Positions 55,061 through 63,548 of a DNA stretch of 64,000 nucleotides are shown one piece after another (position 1 is the stretch's first letter; each line of letters opens with the position of its first letter). Source of the DNA: Hymenobacter elongatus. GTDB lineage: Bacteria; Bacteroidota; Bacteroidia; Cytophagales; Hymenobacteraceae. The translations under genes were made by a program, and so were the position numbers. The stretch is taken from NCBI RefSeq assembly GCF_004745955.1, contig NZ_SRLD01000029.1, positions 1 through 64,000 on the forward strand. Direction: 5' to 3'. A model generated the notes under the pieces. It was not told the DNA's origin and did no database searches. It was given only the letters and a program-made list of their open reading frames with translations.

Positions 55061-57256
55061 CTAAAACCGCAGGCCAATCTGCACGCCTGGCCACAGCCGC
55101 ACCAGCGTGCGGCCCGATTTCGTATCGAGCAGCAGCAGCTGATTTTTGCCGAAGTCGGAGCTCGTGCCGCCGCCTTCGTTCTCATACAACCCCATGTTTA
55201 GGGTGGGCGAAAACACCAGCCCGAGGTGGCCTTGCGGCTCTATCTGCCACGTTAGGGAGGGCCGCAGCTGGGTGTAGGAAAGCAGCGTGCCCGCCGTGCC
55301 CGGCTGCTTCAGCAGGTACCAGTCCAGCAAATCCAGGTTCCAGGAGAAGCGCCCGTGCGGCCGGCTCGCCGTACCGATACCAAAGCCGGTAGCCCAATGA
55401 ATACGGGTACCGAAGGGCTGGGTAGCGGCCGAGAGAATGGTATAATAGCGCGTCACACCGAGCTTCAGGGCCGCATTTAGCGGCAGCGTTTCACTGGCCC
55501 ACACCTCGCCGTGCAGGTAGCCGTGCCGCACAATGTTGATGATGCCCAGCGTGGCTCCCTCCACCGAATCGGCAATGTTGATCAGGCCAAACTGCACACC
55601 ATGTACATGCTTGGCCACGTTCACCAGTCCTAGCTGCAGCCCCCGCACACGGCGGGCCGTATTCAGTAGCGTAGCCGTCTGCAGGCCCCGAATATCAGTG
55701 CCGGTCAGGTTGGCCACGGCGGCGGCTTGTAGCAACGAACCCGGCAGGGAAGAAGCACTGGGAGCCCCTGGGTACCGGGCCGCCGAGTCGGTAGCCAGCA
55801 GGCGGGGCAGCCCCAGCAGCTGGCGCACCCAGGTCGGTCGGCCCGACAAGTCGGAGCGGGCCGCGCCGCCCACGATGTTGACGATGCCGGCCAGCTGAAT
55901 GCCCCGGGCATCGTCGCGCACCACATTTGCAATGCCCGCGCCCTGCATGCCGCGTACCGAGCCGCCCACCACATTCACGACGCCCGCGCCCTGAATGCCG
56001 TTCACCTCCGTGCCGATAACGTTGGCAATACCCGCGCCCTGCACACCTTGCATCGTGTCGCGCACCACGTTCAGGATGCCGCCCAGCTCGACGCCGCGCA
56101 CCCCGGCTGAGTAGCCGGCCAAGGCGTTCAGGGAAATGGTGTTGATGCTGCGCCCGCTGCGCAGCCAGTTGGTACCCAGCGGTGCCACAAACGATATCTG
56201 CCACCGACGTCGGTCGTAGGTCTGGCTCCGAACGGCGGGCGCGGCAATGGGCACCGGCTGTAGCAGCGTATCGCGGGCCGGCAAGCCGCTCCGTACCGCC
56301 ACCACCTGCCCCGCCAGTGTATCGCGCCGGCCGGCTCTGGTCAGGCGTCGGGCACTGTTCTGGAGCGGCTCCTTCAGCCCGCTGGCGGCCACGGCTACCG
56401 AATCGAGGACGGCGCGGGCCCCACCGGCTACTTCCGTTACGCCTTTATTCAGGGTGCGGCCGGTTTGCCGGGCGGTGCGCGCCAGCGTGTTGGTAGCAGC
56501 TTGGGCCGTGGTGCGGGCCTTTTGCCGCAGGCGGGCCAACGCTGAGTCTGTTTCTTGGGTGGTACTATCGACGGCCGCCGGGCGCGAGGGGAGCGAGTCG
56601 GCAGATGATGGCGCGGGCCGAGGCACAGCAACGGCTACTGCTGGTTCCGGATTGGGTCCGGCAAGTGCTGGTGCAGCTGCTTTGGGTGAGCTGACTGGTG
56701 GGGCAGCACGAGCAATAGGGCGCTTGGGGGGAGTGAGAACAGCCGTTTTCTTCATCGGGCCAGCAGCCGGCGTCGATGATTTTACGGCTGCTATTGGTGG
56801 TTTCGCGCTTCGCAGGCTTGCCGCAGTGGGAGGCGCCGTTTTTCGGTTCGTCGCAAGCACGGCGGCGGGCGGGCGGGCGGCAGCCGCCGATGTGGGGACT
56901 ACTGCTGGTGCAGAAGGGGGAACCGCAGGCGGGTTTTCGCCCGTGCGCCACAGCACGATTTGCCCGCCGATAACTTGGTAGGAAACGCCCCGGTTCTGGA
57001 ATAGCTGTTTGAGCACTTCCCTTACCGGCTGAGCGTCTTTTGTGTGGAGGGTTACGCGCTTTTGCAGCGGAATAAATGTGCTGCTGTAGCTAAAGGACAC
57101 CCCGCTCTGCCGCGCTATATCGCGCAGCACCTGGTGCAGCGGCATATTGGTAGCCACCACCCGCACCCGCCGCGCCAGCAGTGCCGACGAGGATTGGGCC
57201 TGGCTGCTGCCACTCCACAGCCACACGCACAAGGCAAGACAAACGACGTACCGCAT
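55061..57256 (-). CDS. STN-domain protein with surface-repeat barrel region
   Basis: 731 residues. A signal peptide (1-20), then an STN (secretin/TonB N-terminal) domain at about 27-110 (MPLHQVLRDIARQSGVSFSYSS, VTLHTKDAQPVREVLKQLFQNRGVSYQVIGGQIVLW). Next a long Pro/Ala/Thr-rich linker (110-340), then repeated GI.NVV units (GGILNVV, GAGIANVI, GAGVVNVV, GIVNIV) at about 390-600, as in the LA_2272 surface-repeat proteins, and a C-terminal barrel-like part ending in GLRF. There is no TonB plug or receptor barrel. It follows the fecR gene by 99 bp and probably passes a signal to it. Confidence 0.8.
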   Translation of the reverse strand: MRYVVCLALCVWLWSGSSQAQSSSALLARRVRVVATNMPLHQVLRDIARQSGVSFSYSSTFIPLQKRVTLHTKDAQPVREVLKQLFQNRGVSYQVIGGQIVLWRTGENPPAVPPSAPAVVPTSAAAARPPAAVLATNRKTAPPTAASLRSAKPPIAAVKSSTPAAGPMKKTAVLTPPKRPIARAAPPVSSPKAAAPALAGPNPEPAVAVAVPRPAPSSADSLPSRPAAVDSTTQETDSALARLRQKARTTAQAATNTLARTARQTGRTLNKGVTEVAGGARAVLDSVAVAASGLKEPLQNSARRLTRAGRRDTLAGQVVAVRSGLPARDTLLQPVPIAAPAVRSQTYDRRRWQISFVAPLGTNWLRSGRSINTISLNALAGYSAGVRGVELGGILNVVRDTMQGVQGAGIANVIGTEVNGIQGAGVVNVVGGSVRGMQGAGIANVVRDDARGIQLAGIVNIVGGAARSDLSGRPTWVRQLLGLPRLLATDSAARYPGAPSASSLPGSLLQAAAVANLTGTDIRGLQTATLLNTARRVRGLQLGLVNVAKHVHGVQFGLINIADSVEGATLGIINIVRHGYLHGEVWASETLPLNAALKLGVTRYYTILSAATQPFGTRIHWATGFGIGTASRPHGRFSWNLDLLDWYLLKQPGTAGTLLSYTQLRPSLTWQIEPQGHLGLVFSPTLNMGLYENEGGGTSSDFGKNQLLLLDTKSGRTLVRLWPGVQIGLRF

Positions 57257-57355
57257 GGGAGCGGAAATGAGGAGATGTGAGGAGAAAAACAGCTGGTCAT
57301 CAGCCGTTCGTACTGAAAAAGCAGCGCGGCTACTCAGGCGGGCCCCACTTGTGGG

Positions 57356-58471
57356 CTACTCGCAGCCTTTACCGTCGAGCAGGAACCCATCAACGGTATT
57401 GCCGGTCAGGGTTGCATTGGTAGCCAGGCTCACGACTTGCAGTACCTGGGCCGGATCGGGCTGATGAAAAGTACCGGTGAAGCGGCAGTTCAGCAAGCTG
57501 TTATCCGACACGCGGATGGTGGTGCCAAACGTGGTGCGCAACGTCCGGACGACGTGGCTGAGGGAAGCATTATCGAACACCAGCTCGTCGGTTTGCCACG
57601 CCCGGAAGTTGGCATCGGCAGTAGCCGTTTGGCGCACCGGAGCCGGAACGGTGCCGCGGGCCGACACGGCCAGCACGCCGCGCATACCGGGCGTGAGCAG
57701 CACCGAGTCCTGGTGGTAGCGGCGACTGGCAAACGCCACTTTGCCCGTCACGACCGACACTTCCACCGAGTCTTCGGCAGCGTAGGCACGCACGTTAAAA
57801 GAAGTACCCAGCACGCGGGTGCGGGTGGCGGCACTCAGCACCGTAAAGGGCCGCTGCGGGTCTTTACGAACGTCAAAAAATGCTTCGCCCGTGAGCTGTA
57901 CCTCCCGCGCACGGCTGCTGAACTCAGCCGCGTACGTTAGGGTAGAATGCTTGTTGAGCCACACCTGGCTGCCATCAGGCAACGCCACCAGGCGCTTTTG
58001 GGCACCGGCCGAAACGGCTACGGGCGGCGTGGGCAGCAGCTCGCGCCGATAAGCCCGAAACGCATATACGGCCCCAACCAGCAGCAAAATAGCGGCGGCA
58101 ACCCGCAGCAGGGCAGGCAGCGCCCGGGGTCGCAGCGGAATAACGGTGTGCTCCGTCGCCGGCTCAGCTACGGCGGCGGGCTCCGTGCGGGTTACGCGCA
58201 GCTGGGGCATTGCTGCTGGTTTGGGTGCCATCATTTTCGGCCGGAACCGCTGCCAGGCGGCCTCCACCTCCATTGCTCCAAACAGCTCGGCTACCGGCGC
58301 GGCCCCGGCCCGCTCCCAGGCGCGGGTGGCATCGGTGAGCAGGCCCAGCCGTTTGGGGTCGGCCGTGACCCAGGCCCGCAGCCGCTCCAGCTCGTCGGGC
58401 GTGGCTTCGCCGGCCAAGTGTTTGGCCAGCAATTCCCAGGGCGCCTCAGACTCAGAGTGGAGAGTAGACAT
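57356..58471 (-). CDS. FecR-type anti-sigma factor
   Basis: 371 residues. Cytoplasmic N-terminal part (1-115, WELLAKHLAGEATPDELERLRAWV is the sigma-binding DUF4880-type helix), one membrane helix (about 118-136, RVAAAILLLVGAVYAFRAY), periplasmic FecR domain (about 150-260, RLVALPDGSQVWLNKHSTLTYAA) and a C-terminal DUF4974 domain (about 295-371). It should hold the ECF sigma factor until a periplasmic signal arrives. The sigma gene is not adjacent but ~4.4 kb upstream on the same strand. Confidence 0.92.
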   Translation of the reverse strand: MSTLHSESEAPWELLAKHLAGEATPDELERLRAWVTADPKRLGLLTDATRAWERAGAAPVAELFGAMEVEAAWQRFRPKMMAPKPAAMPQLRVTRTEPAAVAEPATEHTVIPLRPRALPALLRVAAAILLLVGAVYAFRAYRRELLPTPPVAVSAGAQKRLVALPDGSQVWLNKHSTLTYAAEFSSRAREVQLTGEAFFDVRKDPQRPFTVLSAATRTRVLGTSFNVRAYAAEDSVEVSVVTGKVAFASRRYHQDSVLLTPGMRGVLAVSARGTVPAPVRQTATADANFRAWQTDELVFDNASLSHVVRTLRTTFGTTIRVSDNSLLNCRFTGTFHQPDPAQVLQVVSLATNATLTGNTVDGFLLDGKGCE

Positions 58472-58669
58472 GCAGGATGAAACAATCAGAAAAACGACCG
58501 GCGCAACTCCTAAGCAAGTAAGCCAGGCCGGGGAAATGGTGGCCCAAAATCCACAATTTCTGCGGCAATCTATAACGGATGGTGTTGAGGAGCTACCGAG
58601 TGTCCGTTTTCAGTTTCCGCTACGACTACCAAACGCGCGCGGCTCGCACGTTGTCGCAGAATGCGCGGC

Positions 58670-59509
58670 CTACTCAATCACCAGCGAGTCGGTGCGCACG
58701 GTGTGGCCGGCGAAGTAGCCCACCGCCACTTTTTCGGAGCCGGCCACCACGTTGCGGACGTTGGTGCGCACGTTAGCGGGTGGCGTCGAAAACAGGCCTA
58801 CGTTGTTGATCTGGGTTACCATCTCGTTCAGGAAGTAGAAATAGTCGCGGGTGATGGAAAGAGCCTCCACGCGCACTTTGTCGCCTTTTTTGAACACGCC
58901 ACCCACGCCTTCCTCATTCGTCAGCTCCACGCCGTTGATGTAGTTGCCATCCACCATTTCGTCGTTGGTCACAATCAGGTCGCCCGGCTGGTTGAGGCGG
59001 CGGCCGTTGTGAAATACCTTGAACTGGTAGTAGTCGCCCACGCCCCGCGTTTCCTCGCCGTAGTATAGGATGTAATAGCCTTCGTTCCGGGTGCTGGTTT
59101 TGGCCCGAAACTCGGCCCGGACACTATCAATTTCGGGCGTGCGCCGAATCTCGGTTTCGGCCCGGTACTCCTCCCCTTCCGCCCGGATGGTCAGCACATA
59201 CTGGTTCCCTATTTTGCCCCGCACGGTGCTCGTGGCGTAGCGGCCGGGGCTTACTTCGCGCAGCACTTCGCGCTGGCCTTCGCTGTCTTCCAGCGTCAGC
59301 ACGGCCCCGCGCACGCGTGGCAGCTCGGCCTCATCGAAGTAAGGAGCCGTTTTGGTAAGCGTGACGTAGTACGGGCCCGGCTGGTCGGTGATTTCCCCTT
59401 CCACGGCCAGCAGCGGCTTGCCTTCCGGAATATCGACCGGCACTACATCGAGGCAGCCGGCGAGCGGCAACAGGCAGGCGGCGCAAAAAAAGGTGGCAAT
59501 ACGATTCAT
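58670..59509 (-). CDS. DUF4249 lipoprotein
   Basis: 279 residues with lipobox L-A-G-C19. The GKPLLAVEGEITDQPGPYYVTLTKT start and the SPGRYATS..RGKIGNQYVLTI strand pattern match DUF4249, a family that is found next to TonB-dependent receptors and is thought to be their surface partner. It begins 34 bp after the TonB receptor gene and is probably cotranscribed. 198 bp separate it from fecR. Confidence 0.88.
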   Translation of the reverse strand: MNRIATFFCAACLLPLAGCLDVVPVDIPEGKPLLAVEGEITDQPGPYYVTLTKTAPYFDEAELPRVRGAVLTLEDSEGQREVLREVSPGRYATSTVRGKIGNQYVLTIRAEGEEYRAETEIRRTPEIDSVRAEFRAKTSTRNEGYYILYYGEETRGVGDYYQFKVFHNGRRLNQPGDLIVTNDEMVDGNYINGVELTNEEGVGGVFKKGDKVRVEALSITRDYFYFLNEMVTQINNVGLFSTPPANVRTNVRNVVAGSEKVAVGYFAGHTVRTDSLVIE

Positions 59510-59542
59510 GAGACAGGTATGTAAAGGCCAGCGGGCCGGGGC

Positions 59543-61930
59543 TTAGAAATTGAAATTGTAAGAGGCTGAGGGCAGCACCGTCCCGAACACGGCCAGACGC
59601 ACGGCCTCGGTTTTGGCCGGATTATCCGCGTTCTGGCGGAAATAGATGCTGTAGGGGTTGCGGCGGCCGTAGGCGTTATACACCGAGAACGTCCAGCTGC
59701 TGTGCCAGCGGCGGCTTGGGTCCGGCTTGCCCTCGTAGGTGGCGGCCAGGTCGAGGCGGTGGTAGGCGGGCACGCGGTAATTGTTGCGCACGTCGCCGTT
59801 CACGTTCGGAATCACCAGGCCCTGGTACACGTAGCGGCTGTCGGGAAACGTGGTGGCAATGCCGGTGCTGTAGTTGAAGGTGCTCGACACCGTCCAGCGC
59901 GGCGTGAGGGTGTAGATGCCCACCACCGAGAGGTAGTGCGTCTTGTCGTACTTGTTCACGTACCACTCGTTGTTGTTGATGCCGTTGATCTGCCGCTCGC
60001 TACGGCTCAGCGTGTAGCTCACCCAGCCCGTCAGCCGGCCTTCGTTCTTTTTCACGTAGAACTCGGCCCCGTAGGCCCGGCCCCGGCCATACAGCAGCTC
60101 GGCTTCCAGGTAGCGGTTCAGCAGCGTATTGGCCCCGTTGATGTAGTCGATTTGGTTGTCCATGCGCTTGCCAAACACCTCCACCGACGCCTCATAGGCG
60201 TTATCCTTGAAGTTGCGGAAATAGCCCACGGCCAGCTGGTCGGCGTGCTCGGGCTTAATGTTGTTGGTGCTCGGCGTCCAGACGTCCAGCGGCGACGAAG
60301 CCGTGGTATTCGACACCAGATGAATATACTGCACCATGCGGTTATAGCTGGCTTTCAGCGAGCTATGGCCGTTGAGCGAGTAGCGCAGCGAGGCGCGCGG
60401 CTCCAGGTTCGGGTAGCGCTTAATGAGCTTACCGGCAGCGTACTGCCGGGGGTTGACCGGGGTTTTCTGCCAGCCGTTGGGTCCTTCGTACTCATACACG
60501 GTGCTGCCCGAACCCATGTAGTCGAACATGCTCAGCCGCAGGCCATACTGCGCCGACAAGCGGGGCGAAAACGTCTGCTCATTGTCGAGGTAGGCGCTGT
60601 ATTCCACCGCCCGCTGGTTGTCGAGGGCAATGGTGCGGAAGATGGAATTCGCGGAAATGGGCGTCACGCGGCCCGGCAGAAAGGTGTAGTAAATAGCGCC
60701 CGCGCCAAAGTTAAGCGTGCTTTGGGGCGTGCGGTAGTAGTTGAAATCAGCCTTCGCGCTGTAGTTCACGATGTTGGATTTCCAGTCGAACGACTGGTTG
60801 CCTTCCGGCACGCCCAGGCCGTAGTCGTACTTGCTGACCAAGCCCGTGACGTTGGCAAACAGCCGCGAGTTGAACACGTGGTTCCAGCGCACGGTGCCGG
60901 TGCGGTTGCCCAGCGTGTTCTTGAAATCCTTGCCGAAGGCAAATACGTCGCGCCCCAGGTAGCCCGAAATATACACCCGGTCCTGGTCGCCCAGCGTGTA
61001 GTTGGCCTTCGCCGAGAGGTCATAGAAATAGGCCTGGTTGTCTTTCTGGTCGGGCACGAATTTGAGGAACAAATCCCCGTAGGAGCGGCGGCCGGCCACG
61101 ATGAAGGAGCCTTTATCCTTCACAATCGGCGCTTCCACGGCCAGGCGTGACATAATCAGGCCCACGCCGCCCGTCACGCCCAGGCGCTGGGTGTTGCCTT
61201 CCTTCATGCGCACATCCAGCAGGCTCGACAGCCGCCCGCCGTACTGGGCCGGAATGCCGCCCTTCACTAGCTTAATGTCCTTGACAGCATCGGGATTAAA
61301 GGTCGAAAAGAGCCCGAACAAGTGGGAAGCGTTGTAAATCGGTGCTTCGTCCAGCAGAATCAGGTTCTGGTCGACGCCCCCGCCGCGCACATTGAAGCCC
61401 GACGCGCCCTCGCCCACCGTGCTAATGCCCGGCAGCAACTGAATGCTGCGAATCACATCGACCTCGCCCAGCAGTGCGGGCATCAGCTTCACCGTTTTCA
61501 TATCGAGGCGACTGGTGCCCATTTCGGTGCTTTTCACATTTTCGTCGGGTTTTTTGCCCGTCACCAGCACCTCGTCGGTTTGCAGGCCCTGCGTGGCCAG
61601 GCGCACCGAGCGGGTCAGGTTTTCGCTGAGCACGAGCGGCGTGTTTTGCGGTTCGTAGCCCACGAAGGTGTAGGTAATCGTGTAGGTACCCTTGGGCAGC
61701 GTGAGCGAGTAAAAACCGTATTCGTTGGCGGTAGCGCCAATGCCCAGACTTTTCACTACCACCGTAGCGCCCACCAGCGCCTCGCCGTTGGCCGCGTCTT
61801 TCAGGTAGCCGCTCACGGTTACTTTACCGTTGGGGTCAGCGGCCCGGCCGGCCGGCTGCTGCGCCAGGGCCCCCGTGGCGGGCAGCAGCAAACACAGGAA
61901 TCCCAGAAATAGTCGAAGTGCAAATGCCAT
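59543..61930 (-). CDS. TonB-dependent outer membrane receptor
   Basis: 795 residues from ATG at 61930. Signal peptide (1-25, ending GALAQQ), a carboxypeptidase-regulatory-like domain (about 35-115), then plug (LPGISTVGEGASGFNVRGGGVDQNLILLDEAPIYN, about 165-230) and a 22-strand-type barrel ending in SYNFNF. There is no STN domain at the N-terminus. It imports a ligand using TonB energy. The partner is the DUF4249 lipoprotein downstream. Confidence 0.93.
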   Translation of the reverse strand: MAFALRLFLGFLCLLLPATGALAQQPAGRAADPNGKVTVSGYLKDAANGEALVGATVVVKSLGIGATANEYGFYSLTLPKGTYTITYTFVGYEPQNTPLVLSENLTRSVRLATQGLQTDEVLVTGKKPDENVKSTEMGTSRLDMKTVKLMPALLGEVDVIRSIQLLPGISTVGEGASGFNVRGGGVDQNLILLDEAPIYNASHLFGLFSTFNPDAVKDIKLVKGGIPAQYGGRLSSLLDVRMKEGNTQRLGVTGGVGLIMSRLAVEAPIVKDKGSFIVAGRRSYGDLFLKFVPDQKDNQAYFYDLSAKANYTLGDQDRVYISGYLGRDVFAFGKDFKNTLGNRTGTVRWNHVFNSRLFANVTGLVSKYDYGLGVPEGNQSFDWKSNIVNYSAKADFNYYRTPQSTLNFGAGAIYYTFLPGRVTPISANSIFRTIALDNQRAVEYSAYLDNEQTFSPRLSAQYGLRLSMFDYMGSGSTVYEYEGPNGWQKTPVNPRQYAAGKLIKRYPNLEPRASLRYSLNGHSSLKASYNRMVQYIHLVSNTTASSPLDVWTPSTNNIKPEHADQLAVGYFRNFKDNAYEASVEVFGKRMDNQIDYINGANTLLNRYLEAELLYGRGRAYGAEFYVKKNEGRLTGWVSYTLSRSERQINGINNNEWYVNKYDKTHYLSVVGIYTLTPRWTVSSTFNYSTGIATTFPDSRYVYQGLVIPNVNGDVRNNYRVPAYHRLDLAATYEGKPDPSRRWHSSWTFSVYNAYGRRNPYSIYFRQNADNPAKTEAVRLAVFGTVLPSASYNFNF

Positions 61931-62029
61931 AGCGAAAGGAGATTTCGGAAGAGGAAAGGCCGGCCCGGCGCAAGGCACCAGTGGCTGGCCTGTATACATA
62001 AGCGGTGGTAGCGTCGACGACAGCCAGCG

Positions 62030-62758
62030 TTAGTTCGCGTCGACGACGCGGCCGGAGCCGGAGGTGCGCACCGTTAGGGCAGGGCGGCCTTTGTAATACA
62101 CCGTGCCCGATCCGCTGATGGTGGCGCTCAAGCTCTGGGGTACTGTCAGGCGGGTGCTGCCCGAGCCGCTGATGTTCACCTCGGCGGCCTGCACAGTGAG
62201 CGGATACGCTTCTACCGCGCCCGAGCCGCTCAGGCGCACCTGGCAGCGGGCCGCGTCGCCGGCCAGCCGCACCGCGCCCGAGCCGGAAATATCAGCGTCC
62301 AGGCTCTGCACTCCGAGTACGCTCAAGTCGATGCTGCCCGAGCCCGACAAGCCGACGCTTAGCGCCGGCACCCGCCACGCATTCTGGCCCACTATCCTGC
62401 CCGAGCCCGACAGGGATACGCCCGTCAGAGAAGGAGCCGTGATATAGATGCGGATAGGATCGTGGCGGCGCACGCTCACCCGGCCAAAGCTGATGGACAG
62501 CCGCTCGCCGCTCACGTTGGTTTGCAGCACATCCAGAATGTTCTGCTGGGCTTCCACGCGCACGGTTTGGGTGGGCCCCTGCGTGAGGTATAGCTCGGCA
62601 TCCACGGCCAGGTCGAGGCGGGAGAAGCCGGGCACGGCGCGGTTTTCGGCCGCTACCGGCCCACTGCCGGTTACTTTATCCGGAAAAATGTCGTCGCAGT
62701 CGCAGCCCGCCAAGAGCAGGAGCAGCGGTAGCAGGCAGAGGTAGTGCAGGTTTTTCAT
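62030..62758 (-). CDS. Head GIN domain lipoprotein (DUF2807)
   Basis: 242 residues with lipobox L-A-G-C19. The body consists of regular G-S-G-containing units (SLSGSGRIVG, GLSGSGSIDL, DISGSGAVRL, RLSGSGAVEA, NISGSGSTRL, TISGSGTVYY), which build the right-handed parallel beta-helix of DUF2807 proteins. It is probably surface-exposed. It lies between the sigma gene (104 bp) and the TonB receptor gene (99 bp); no terminator is visible between them. Confidence 0.93.
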   Translation of the reverse strand: MKNLHYLCLLPLLLLLAGCDCDDIFPDKVTGSGPVAAENRAVPGFSRLDLAVDAELYLTQGPTQTVRVEAQQNILDVLQTNVSGERLSISFGRVSVRRHDPIRIYITAPSLTGVSLSGSGRIVGQNAWRVPALSVGLSGSGSIDLSVLGVQSLDADISGSGAVRLAGDAARCQVRLSGSGAVEAYPLTVQAAEVNISGSGSTRLTVPQSLSATISGSGTVYYKGRPALTVRTSGSGRVVDAN

Positions 62759-62862
62759 AGCCGTTGGTAAGGTTTCAGGTCAGAAGAAGGATGCTTTCTT
62801 CTGTCTGATCCGTAACCCTGCCTTCACCCCTACGCGCCCACAACTTATTTTTTCGCGGCAGC

Positions 62863-63444
62863 CTATAGCAGCAAGGAATACAGGTTTTTGAGCAGCCCGC
62901 TCAGCTGCTGCCGCATAATGCGCAGCGCCTTGCCCATCTGGTTTTCCACGGTTTTAGGCGAAATCTCGAGCGTATCAGCAATTTCCTGGTAGCTCATCTC
63001 ATCGTAGCGGCTCATGGTGAACACCACCCGACACTGGGGCGGCAGCAGCCCCAGCGCGGCCTCCACCGAGTCCTCGGCTTCCCGCTGATATAGGGCGTGC
63101 AGCGCATTATCGACCTGCGGCTCTTTGTCCACCGGCGCGTCGTCCCAGGCTACCTGCCGCTTGCCCCGGTCGGCGTAGCGCAAGGCGGCATTCAGCGCCG
63201 CCCGGTATAGGTAAGCATGGTAGGTAGTCGTGATGACGAGCGTGTCACGGGCGTTCCAAACCCGCAGAAAAACGTCCTGCAGTAAATCCTGCGTGGCTTC
63301 CTTGTCCTTCACCACCCGCTGAATCACGTTGCCCAGCGGCCGATAGAACTCCTTGAACAGCAGCTCCATAAAGGCCTCCGCGTCGGTGTCGCGCAGGTGG
63401 GCGAGCCGGGCTTCTACTGCGTCTGGAGCATCGGAAGTAGCCAT
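62863..63444 (-). CDS. ECF RNA polymerase sigma factor, Bacteroidota type
   Basis: 193 residues. Region 2 is visible (FMELLFKEFYRPLGNVIQRVV..EATQDLLQDVFLRVWNARD) and region 4 with its helix-turn-helix (LGLLPPQCRVVFTMSRYDEMSYQEIADTLEISPKTVENQMGKAL). It should direct transcription of the envelope genes that follow, under control of the FecR protein at 57356. TAGCTTTG (63499-63506, minus strand) is its likely -7 element, with a ~49-nt leader. Confidence 0.95.
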   Translation of the reverse strand: MATSDAPDAVEARLAHLRDTDAEAFMELLFKEFYRPLGNVIQRVVKDKEATQDLLQDVFLRVWNARDTLVITTTYHAYLYRAALNAALRYADRGKRQVAWDDAPVDKEPQVDNALHALYQREAEDSVEAALGLLPPQCRVVFTMSRYDEMSYQEIADTLEISPKTVENQMGKALRIMRQQLSGLLKNLYSLLL

Positions 63445-63498: not shown

Positions 63499-63506
63499 CA
63501 AAGCTA
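63499..63506 (-). promoter_or_regulatory. -7 element of the sigma factor operon
   Basis: Minus strand TAGCTTTG, 55 bp before the sigma start codon. No TTG at -33 is visible. Confidence 0.55.
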
Positions 63507-63548
63507 CACTATATAGAGTTTCGACTAGCTTTTTCTCACATACATATG

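Follow-up and report, generated by a model that had tools for sequence, protein, structure and literature searches.

Signaling through FecR is ascribed to TonB-dependent transducers. A gene cluster at positions 55061 to 63444 of a 64,000-nucleotide stretch of the Hymenobacter elongatus genome (contig NZ_SRLD01000029.1; the whole stretch is referred to as the window) raises the question of which protein addresses FecR when the TonB-dependent receptor of the cluster carries no STN domain and an STN domain is found on a separate protein encoded beside fecR. Our analysis indicates that the cluster probably encodes a variant of cell-surface signaling in which FecR is partnered at the outer membrane by a plug-less 8-stranded barrel carrying the STN domain on a beta-helix and flexible linker. 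This reading is carried by the computed anatomy of the proteins, the co-inheritance of FecR and the STN-barrel protein, the lack of a spare STN partner in the genome and a conserved, single promoter-like site.

Organization of the gene cluster

All six genes of the cluster lie on the minus strand, in the transcription order sigma-GIN-receptor-DUF4249-FecR-STN-barrel:

62863-63444, minus strand: extracytoplasmic function (ECF) sigma factor, TIGR02985 subfamily (NCBIfam, 140.9 bits, cut-off 126.4)
62030-62758, minus strand: DUF2807 head-GIN-domain protein, cargo, with an N-terminus that is lipoprotein-like by eye (Pfam, 161 bits)
59543-61930, minus strand: TonB-dependent receptor without STN, cargo, consisting of CarboxypepD_reg, Plug and barrel (Pfam)
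58670-59509, minus strand: DUF4249 protein, cargo (Pfam, 108.2 bits)
57356-58471, minus strand: FecR (Pfam, 71.2 and 43.4 bits)
55061-57256, minus strand: STN-barrel protein of 731 residues, proposed outer-membrane partner of FecR (Pfam, NCBIfam, structure model)

A sequence-only reading had placed the STN domain on the separate protein at 55061-57256, adjoining fecR, and had called the receptor at 59543-61930 STN-free. This is borne out by Pfam, which gave an STN match above cut-off for the STN-barrel protein only among the cluster genes (35.8 bits, cut-off 28.4) and none for the receptor even at E 0.1. The surface-repeat region claimed for the same protein corresponds to an LA_2272 surface repeat above the NCBIfam cut-off (31.5 bits, cut-off 25), and the sigma gene indeed stands at the opposite end of the cluster, with 4391 base pairs (bp) between it and fecR where about 4.4 kb had been noted. 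FecR and the STN-barrel protein are encoded in two distinct open frames with 99 bp between them. Among solved structures, FecR matches the anti-sigma factors 4m0n (E 8e-20) and 4m0h (E 1.5e-19), and its layout comprises a cytoplasmic N-terminus, a single membrane helix at about residues 119-139 (read from the sequence), a periplasmic FecR domain and an STN-like FecR_C domain. The open frame of the receptor extends to 61999, and the start at 61930 yields an N-terminus that reads as signal-peptide-like.

Conservation of the FecR/STN-barrel pair in Hymenobacter

FecR was searched for in 101 genomes of the genus, 89 of which gave a match, and the neighborhoods of the 60 best hits besides the window's own were fetched. 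The 42 closest fetched loci (from 41 genomes) and the window form an ortholog group of 43 loci. In all 43, the STN-barrel gene lies directly behind FecR. The remaining gene order, which the sequence-only reading had suggested comparing in relatives, is variable: 16 loci show a sigma-FecR-STN-barrel layout (type a), 15 a sigma-GIN-FecR-STN-barrel layout and 12, window included, a receptor and DUF4249 gene between sigma (with or without GIN) and FecR. The receptor type of the window is absent from 31 of the 42 fetched ortholog loci, in three of which (L048, L051 and L054) a different type of receptor lies downstream, and in 28 of the 43 loci our own profile found no receptor at all within the fetched stretch. 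Since it is the STN protein, rather than the receptor, that stays with FecR throughout, this protein is the likely relay. The STN-barrel gene is in two frames or cut short in L045, L047, L049 and L076, by frameshift or assembly fault. More distant loci of the genus (L080 to L084) consist of sigma, FecR and a receptor that itself bears STN; the fused STN was found by Pfam above cut-off in L080, L081 and L082, by our own profile only in L083, and by our own profile in L084.

On a tree of the genus FecRs, receptor presence requires 3 changes and GIN presence 1. The idea that the receptor entered between sigma and FecR in one event was therefore not upheld. Nearby receptors fall on different branches of the receptor tree, on which L242 was called STN-bearing from its N-terminus without a profile match and L235 from a 17-bit match only; outside the genus, receptors of the window's branch also adjoin STN-barrels (L113, L173). 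Given the 3 changes and these closest outside-genus receptors beside STN-barrels, repeated receptor loss is as likely. The earlier suggestion that two regulatory units had been joined survives in part: receptor/DUF4249 and GIN come and go as cargo, while sigma, FecR and STN-barrel form the constant set. The gene order of the window may have arisen by insertion here or by loss elsewhere.

STN domains elsewhere in the genome

The sequence-only reading had named an STN-bearing receptor elsewhere that pairs with this FecR as a finding that would speak against it. A whole-genome scan gave 3 FecR and 2 STN matches above cut-off. The second STN (contig C70) sits behind its own FecR in a classic sigma-FecR-SusC locus. 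Behind the third FecR (contig C51, L007 7192-9119) lies the start of a receptor whose N-terminus looks STN-like by eye; its frame breaks after 239 residues, and Pfam gave no STN match for it. With the C70 STN having its own FecR and the C51 FecR its STN-like receptor start, no orphan STN receptor was left over genome-wide for the FecR of the window.

The pair across Bacteroidota

Genomes of 84,980 species were scanned with barrel-repeat patterns rather than with FecR. From the 123 relatives obtained, the 80 best loci were retained; among these are Hymenobacter, Pedobacter, Mucilaginibacter, Niastella, Chitinophaga, Spirosoma, Saprospiraceae, Prolixibacter, Segatella, Flavobacteriales and others. 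The 80 loci contain 116 barrel frames, 75 with an N-terminal STN (74 by our own STN profile, L126 through our own receptor profile only) and 41 without. Directly behind a same-strand FecR lie 69 of the 75 STN-bearing barrels, with gaps of -61 to +35 bp in 61 of these pairs, and none of the 41 STN-less barrels, 9 of which lie within 1.5 kb of a FecR. The sigma gene was found at most 300 bp before FecR in 55 of the 69 pairs, further off in 9 (8 of them Hymenobacter loci with receptor and DUF4249 between) and not at all in 5. A same-strand receptor is nearby in 30 pairs, and none was found nearby on that strand in the other 39. Our own profile detected STN in none of these 30 receptors, nor did Pfam in any of the 7 to which it was applied. 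GIN genes accompany 35 of the 69 pairs and second barrel genes 34.

Two of the 75 STN-barrels (L166 and L171, Mucilaginibacter) are convergent to FecR-sigma. In the Chitinophaga loci L132, L138 and L156, a small protein of about 200 residues is encoded directly before the STN-barrel. STN-less LA_2272 barrels also occur on contigs labeled candidate division WOR-3 (L109, L110), and a search for viral contigs carrying FecR returned none.

To place the pair among other FecR systems, a census was taken of all 48 FecR hits in the 11 same-order or same-class genomes of the phylum sample that have one. The partner behind FecR is an STN-barrel in 3 cases, a receptor-sized protein in 44 (42 match our own receptor profile; L215 and L248 do not) and something else in 1. 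The STN-barrel is a minority partner type of FecR.

Partner type follows the FecR phylogeny. A tree was calculated for 139 FecRs from a non-random sample (61 genus loci, 28 phylum loci chosen for spread, 48 census loci and 2 from the genome itself), leaving out frames below 115 bits and the L079 fragment. Partners were labeled barrel in 75 and receptor in 63 of 138 rows, one other partner being uncounted. The partner label needs 4 changes on this tree compared with a mean of 46 after shuffling, with none of 500 shuffles as low, and the barrel-type FecRs form one region of the tree. Correlations of pair distances from 39 genus loci were 0.76 for FecR-STN given sigma, 0.42 for FecR-barrel given sigma and 0.11 for sigma-STN given FecR, thus favoring FecR-STN over FecR-barrel.

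Build of the STN-barrel protein

A full-length model of the STN-barrel protein was built from an alignment of 63 sequences plus its own, with confidence expressed as predicted local distance difference test score (pLDDT). The following parts can be told apart:

56927-57193, minus strand: STN domain, residues 22-110 (Pfam; model pLDDT mostly above 90)
56225-56926, minus strand: Ala/Pro-rich linker, residues 111-344 (mostly low confidence; helices predicted at 234-316)
55529-56224, minus strand: LA_2272 repeats, modeled as a beta-helix, residues 345-576 (model)
55064-55528, minus strand: 8-stranded outer-membrane-type barrel ending in Phe, residues 577-731 (model)

Following the linker of about 230 residues, the C-terminal half of the model is confident and all-beta. 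The barrel behind the repeats had escaped the sequence-only reading. Fold assignments of barrel and beta-helix were made with VIA-align. Residues 577-731 align with the designed membrane barrel 6x9z (Z 15.2, root-mean-square deviation (rmsd) 2.1 over 110 residues) and with OprF 4rlc (Z 13.9, rmsd 2.6 over 122), and also with NspA, OmpW and OmpA. The terminal Phe is found in the STN-barrel of the window and in 49 of 66 relatives outside the genus. Modeled alone, the LA_2272 repeats reach a mean pLDDT of 88 and align with the beta-helical antifreeze protein 3p4g (Z 16.8, rmsd 2.4 over 191 residues); GlmU-like helices score Z of about 12 but with an rmsd near 10. Foldseek returned no match at E < 0.001 for either the protein or the repeat model, with 3p4g ranked 25th (E 2.7). 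When the STN-barrel profile was compared with solved structures, a single weak match was obtained, to the SusC-homolog domain 9hfj (E 5.6e-05).

In all 16 type-a genus loci, no repeat fitting our own pattern was found and the C-terminal barrel part is kept (in two pieces in L076), so that STN, linker and barrel look like the core of the protein. CarbopepD_reg_2 is present in 43 of the 63 aligned STN-barrels outside the genus compared with 1 of 33 in the genus set, Hymenobacter proteins mostly having the linker alone at that place. Since the N- and C-termini of known outer-membrane barrels are both periplasmic, the beta-helix is probably a periplasmic stalk rather than a surface structure. By extension, what are called LA_2272 "surface" repeats may in some proteins form stalks in the periplasm.

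Promoter-like elements

Two conserved elements precede the sigma gene and the operon-like gene series behind it:

63499-63516, minus strand: element before the sigma gene, CTATATAGTGTAGCTTTG, containing TAnnTTTG (8 aligned loci)
62826-62853, minus strand: putative sigma-dependent promoter made up of an A/T tract, a spacer and GCGTAGGGGT, 68 bp before the GIN gene

The element before the sigma gene reads CTATATAGTGTAG[C/A]TTTG in 8 of 8 aligned loci, identical but for one base, and has 1 match in the window where 0 are expected. PMC9723704 gives TAnnTTTG as the -7 box of flavobacterial sigma-A and also reports a CGT box for ECF-type promoters. We infer that the sigma gene has a housekeeping-type promoter. 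The CGT box fits GCGTAGGGGT.

An A/T tract like AAAAAATATTTTC, followed by a short spacer and GCGT[A/G]GGGGT, is common to 8 aligned loci in the region before GIN. The strict pattern AAAAWWWN{7,13}CGTRGGGGT matches once in the 4.97 Mb genome, at 62826-62853; its reversed control has 0 matches, and 0 are expected in the window. Since a looser pattern gave 8 matches compared with 7 for its reversed control, the strict pattern alone was used in the genome itself. The strict site is present at the locus in all 7 of the sister genomes searched that have the locus, one of them having one further match; among 5 genomes without an ortholog, 4 lack the site and 1 has one match. A slightly wider expression was found at 35 of 44 genus STN-barrel loci and at 0 of 19 classic FecR loci of like length. 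In genus STN-barrel loci, the core lies upstream of GIN in 22 of 23 cases, of FecR in 14 of 45, of the receptor in 5 of 15, of sigma in 1 of 44 and of the STN-barrel in 0 of 47, compared with 0/18 (FecR), 0/18 (sigma) and 0/12 (receptor) in genus classic loci and 168/8400 in random stretches. As the element is single in the genome and absent from the 19 classic loci, the sigma factor probably uses the predicted site to transcribe GIN through STN-barrel as a single operon. In the cargo-free loci L061, L071, L073 and L079, the element stands before lipoprotein-like or small secreted-protein-like genes several kb off, which are possible targets of those sigma factors.

Counter-evidence and alternative explanations

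Several results weigh against the STN-barrel as the outer-membrane partner of FecR. Soluble 8-stranded barrels fit the C-terminus almost equally well (mFAP1 Z 12.9, avidin about 11). At E 0.01, Pfam recognizes STN in 49 of the 63 aligned STN-barrels and in 18 of 33 of the genus set, in which two rows are C-terminal pieces; STN calls without a Pfam match, such as that for the type-a protein of L070, rest on our own profile, built partly from such proteins. For four Chitinophaga STN-barrels (L132, L138, L147 and L156), no FecR was found in the fetched stretch. The FecRs of the STN-receptor loci L080 to L084, together with that of L250, sit among the barrel-type FecRs, so that partner type can change, and within the one lineage of L080 to L084 the STN carrier seems to have changed. 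A tree of STN domains requires 7 changes and is poorly resolved, with too few columns. The distance test, which is specific for FecR-STN in the genus, is non-specific outside it: 54 outside-genus loci gave 0.30 for FecR-STN given sigma, 0.52 for FecR-barrel given sigma and 0.56 for sigma-STN given FecR. The promoter-like site is likewise rarer outside the genus, where 16 of 66 STN-barrel loci have it (18 sites; shuffles 0.8) compared with 1 of the 44 shorter classic stretches (1.5 and 0.3 sites per 100 kb, respectively). There, the core lies upstream of sigma in 14 of 58 cases, of second barrels in 11 of 42, of receptors in 7 of 27 and of GIN in only 1 of 30.

One could imagine a tripartite relay in which the STN-less receptor senses a substrate and acts via the STN-barrel, which in turn signals to FecR, the transducer role being shared by two proteins. 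Such an arrangement would fit the 12 of 43 genus loci whose receptor and DUF4249 genes are placed between those for sigma and FecR, as well as the same-branch receptors beside STN-barrels outside the genus (L113, L173) and the downstream receptors of another type in L048, L051 and L054. The receptor cannot be a general part of the system, however, given the many receptor-free loci (28 of 43 in the genus by our own profile; 39 of 69 in the phylum with none nearby on the same strand), and the receptors that are nearby stem from different branches. We regard a tripartite relay as unlikely, though for the layout of the window itself it may hold. That the FecR of the window is served by an STN receptor encoded elsewhere, the STN-barrel being an outer-membrane protein that shares the operon and has another job, is very improbable. 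There is one other above-cut-off STN protein in the genome (C70), and the Chitinophaga STN-barrels without FecR in reach would suit a separate function; the C70 receptor, however, lies behind its own FecR, and the FecR/STN-barrel pair is kept in 43 of 43 genus and 69 of 75 phylum cases, with partner types that follow the FecR tree.

The split system proposed by the sequence-only reading calls for a similar distinction. Its relay part stands, the STN protein being the likely relay in view of the same two counts. A classic STN receptor that split is not supported: the FecR/STN-barrel pair is widespread in Bacteroidota, and on this phylum-wide recurrence an origin from a split or relic receptor was rejected. 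Related receptors with fused STN do exist (L080 to L082, above the Pfam cut-off), as would be expected if such a receptor had broken apart in this lineage with its parts now decaying, but the frame of the STN protein is unbroken over its 731 residues, the 8-stranded barrel predicted for it does not resemble that of a receptor, and the layout is found repeatedly in the phylum. A decaying relic is scarcely credible.

Proposed mechanism

For the STN-barrel as the partner of FecR, the following sequence of events can be proposed. The sigma factor would be made from its housekeeping-type promoter and held by FecR at the inner membrane. From the barrel protein, the STN would extend through the periplasm and dock on the STN-like C-terminal domain of FecR, in the manner of FecA-, FoxA- and PupB-type signaling domains. 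As described in PMC7186176, the C-terminal STN subdomain of PupR forms part of a crystal complex with the PupB signaling domain; the FoxA signaling domain shields FoxR from proteolysis, with STN-STN contact predicted, according to PMC11637429. The simplest reading is that the barrel-borne STN would dock on FecR as in PupB/PupR and FoxA/FoxR. Docking may keep FecR intact or switch it, and a changed state of the barrel protein would free the sigma factor. Freed sigma would recognize and fire one promoter before GIN, so that GIN, receptor, DUF4249, FecR and STN-barrel would be expressed together. The distance between sigma and FecR would follow from the anti-sigma factor and its partner belonging to the regulated operon, and as operon members FecR and STN-barrel would damp the response by feedback. 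The receptor would be regulated cargo and not the transducer.

An 8-stranded barrel is not known to leave space for both plug and transport path, which makes the state of the outer membrane a fair guess for the signal. We tentatively extend this to a TonB-independent branch of signaling in Bacteroidota, in which FecR and a small barrel with STN on a linker, using their own promoter class, report outer-membrane state (e.g. barrel insertion or envelope tension) rather than a receptor ligand, as a two-protein counterpart of Dma anti-sigma factors. Such a branch is plausible, if somewhat short of probable.

A conserved class of STN on a plug-less barrel separates signaling from transport and provides a natural setting in which to see how STN docking by itself affects FecR. 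In addition, the apparent single-operon regulon with its recognizable promoter element could be tested with one reporter.

Comparison with known systems

In the literature searched, we found no recognized description of an STN-bearing non-receptor barrel beside FecR in Bacteroidota, and such a protein is undescribed in the available sections of PMC9249621, PMC12045153, PMC12596196 and PMC10434189. Like Fec-type systems (FecI-FecR-FecA, FoxR/FoxA, PupR/PupB), the cluster encodes an ECF sigma factor and FecR together, here 4391 bp apart, and its FecR has an STN-like C-terminal domain and an STN partner encoded beside it. Unlike in these systems, STN is carried by a plug-less 8-stranded barrel and not by a TonB-dependent transducer, and the receptor of the operon is STN-free. 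With the STN receptors beside FecR in Bacteroidota (SusC and DUF4249 types; C70, L080 to L084), the cluster shares an STN carrier directly behind FecR, whereas in those systems receptor and STN are one protein.

The PUMA3/Vre system of Pseudomonas aeruginosa (VreA-VreI-VreR) resembles the cluster in having STN on a non-receptor protein beside the regulator. According to PMC2729926, VreA carries STN on a protein other than a TonB receptor, is paired with a sigma regulator and is mostly soluble with a TolA/TonB-like C-terminus. The window protein differs in that its C-terminus is a predicted 8-stranded barrel ending in Phe and its layout is spread through Bacteroidota. Dma proteins, which partner ECF21 sigma factors, combine an inner-membrane anti-sigma factor, a disordered tether and a C-terminal beta-barrel in one polypeptide (PMC13088901). 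The proposed system would work somewhat similarly, joining an inner-membrane anti-sigma factor functionally to a barrel. In contrast to Dma, it consists of two proteins, encoded in separate frames 99 bp apart, which would meet through STN contacts.

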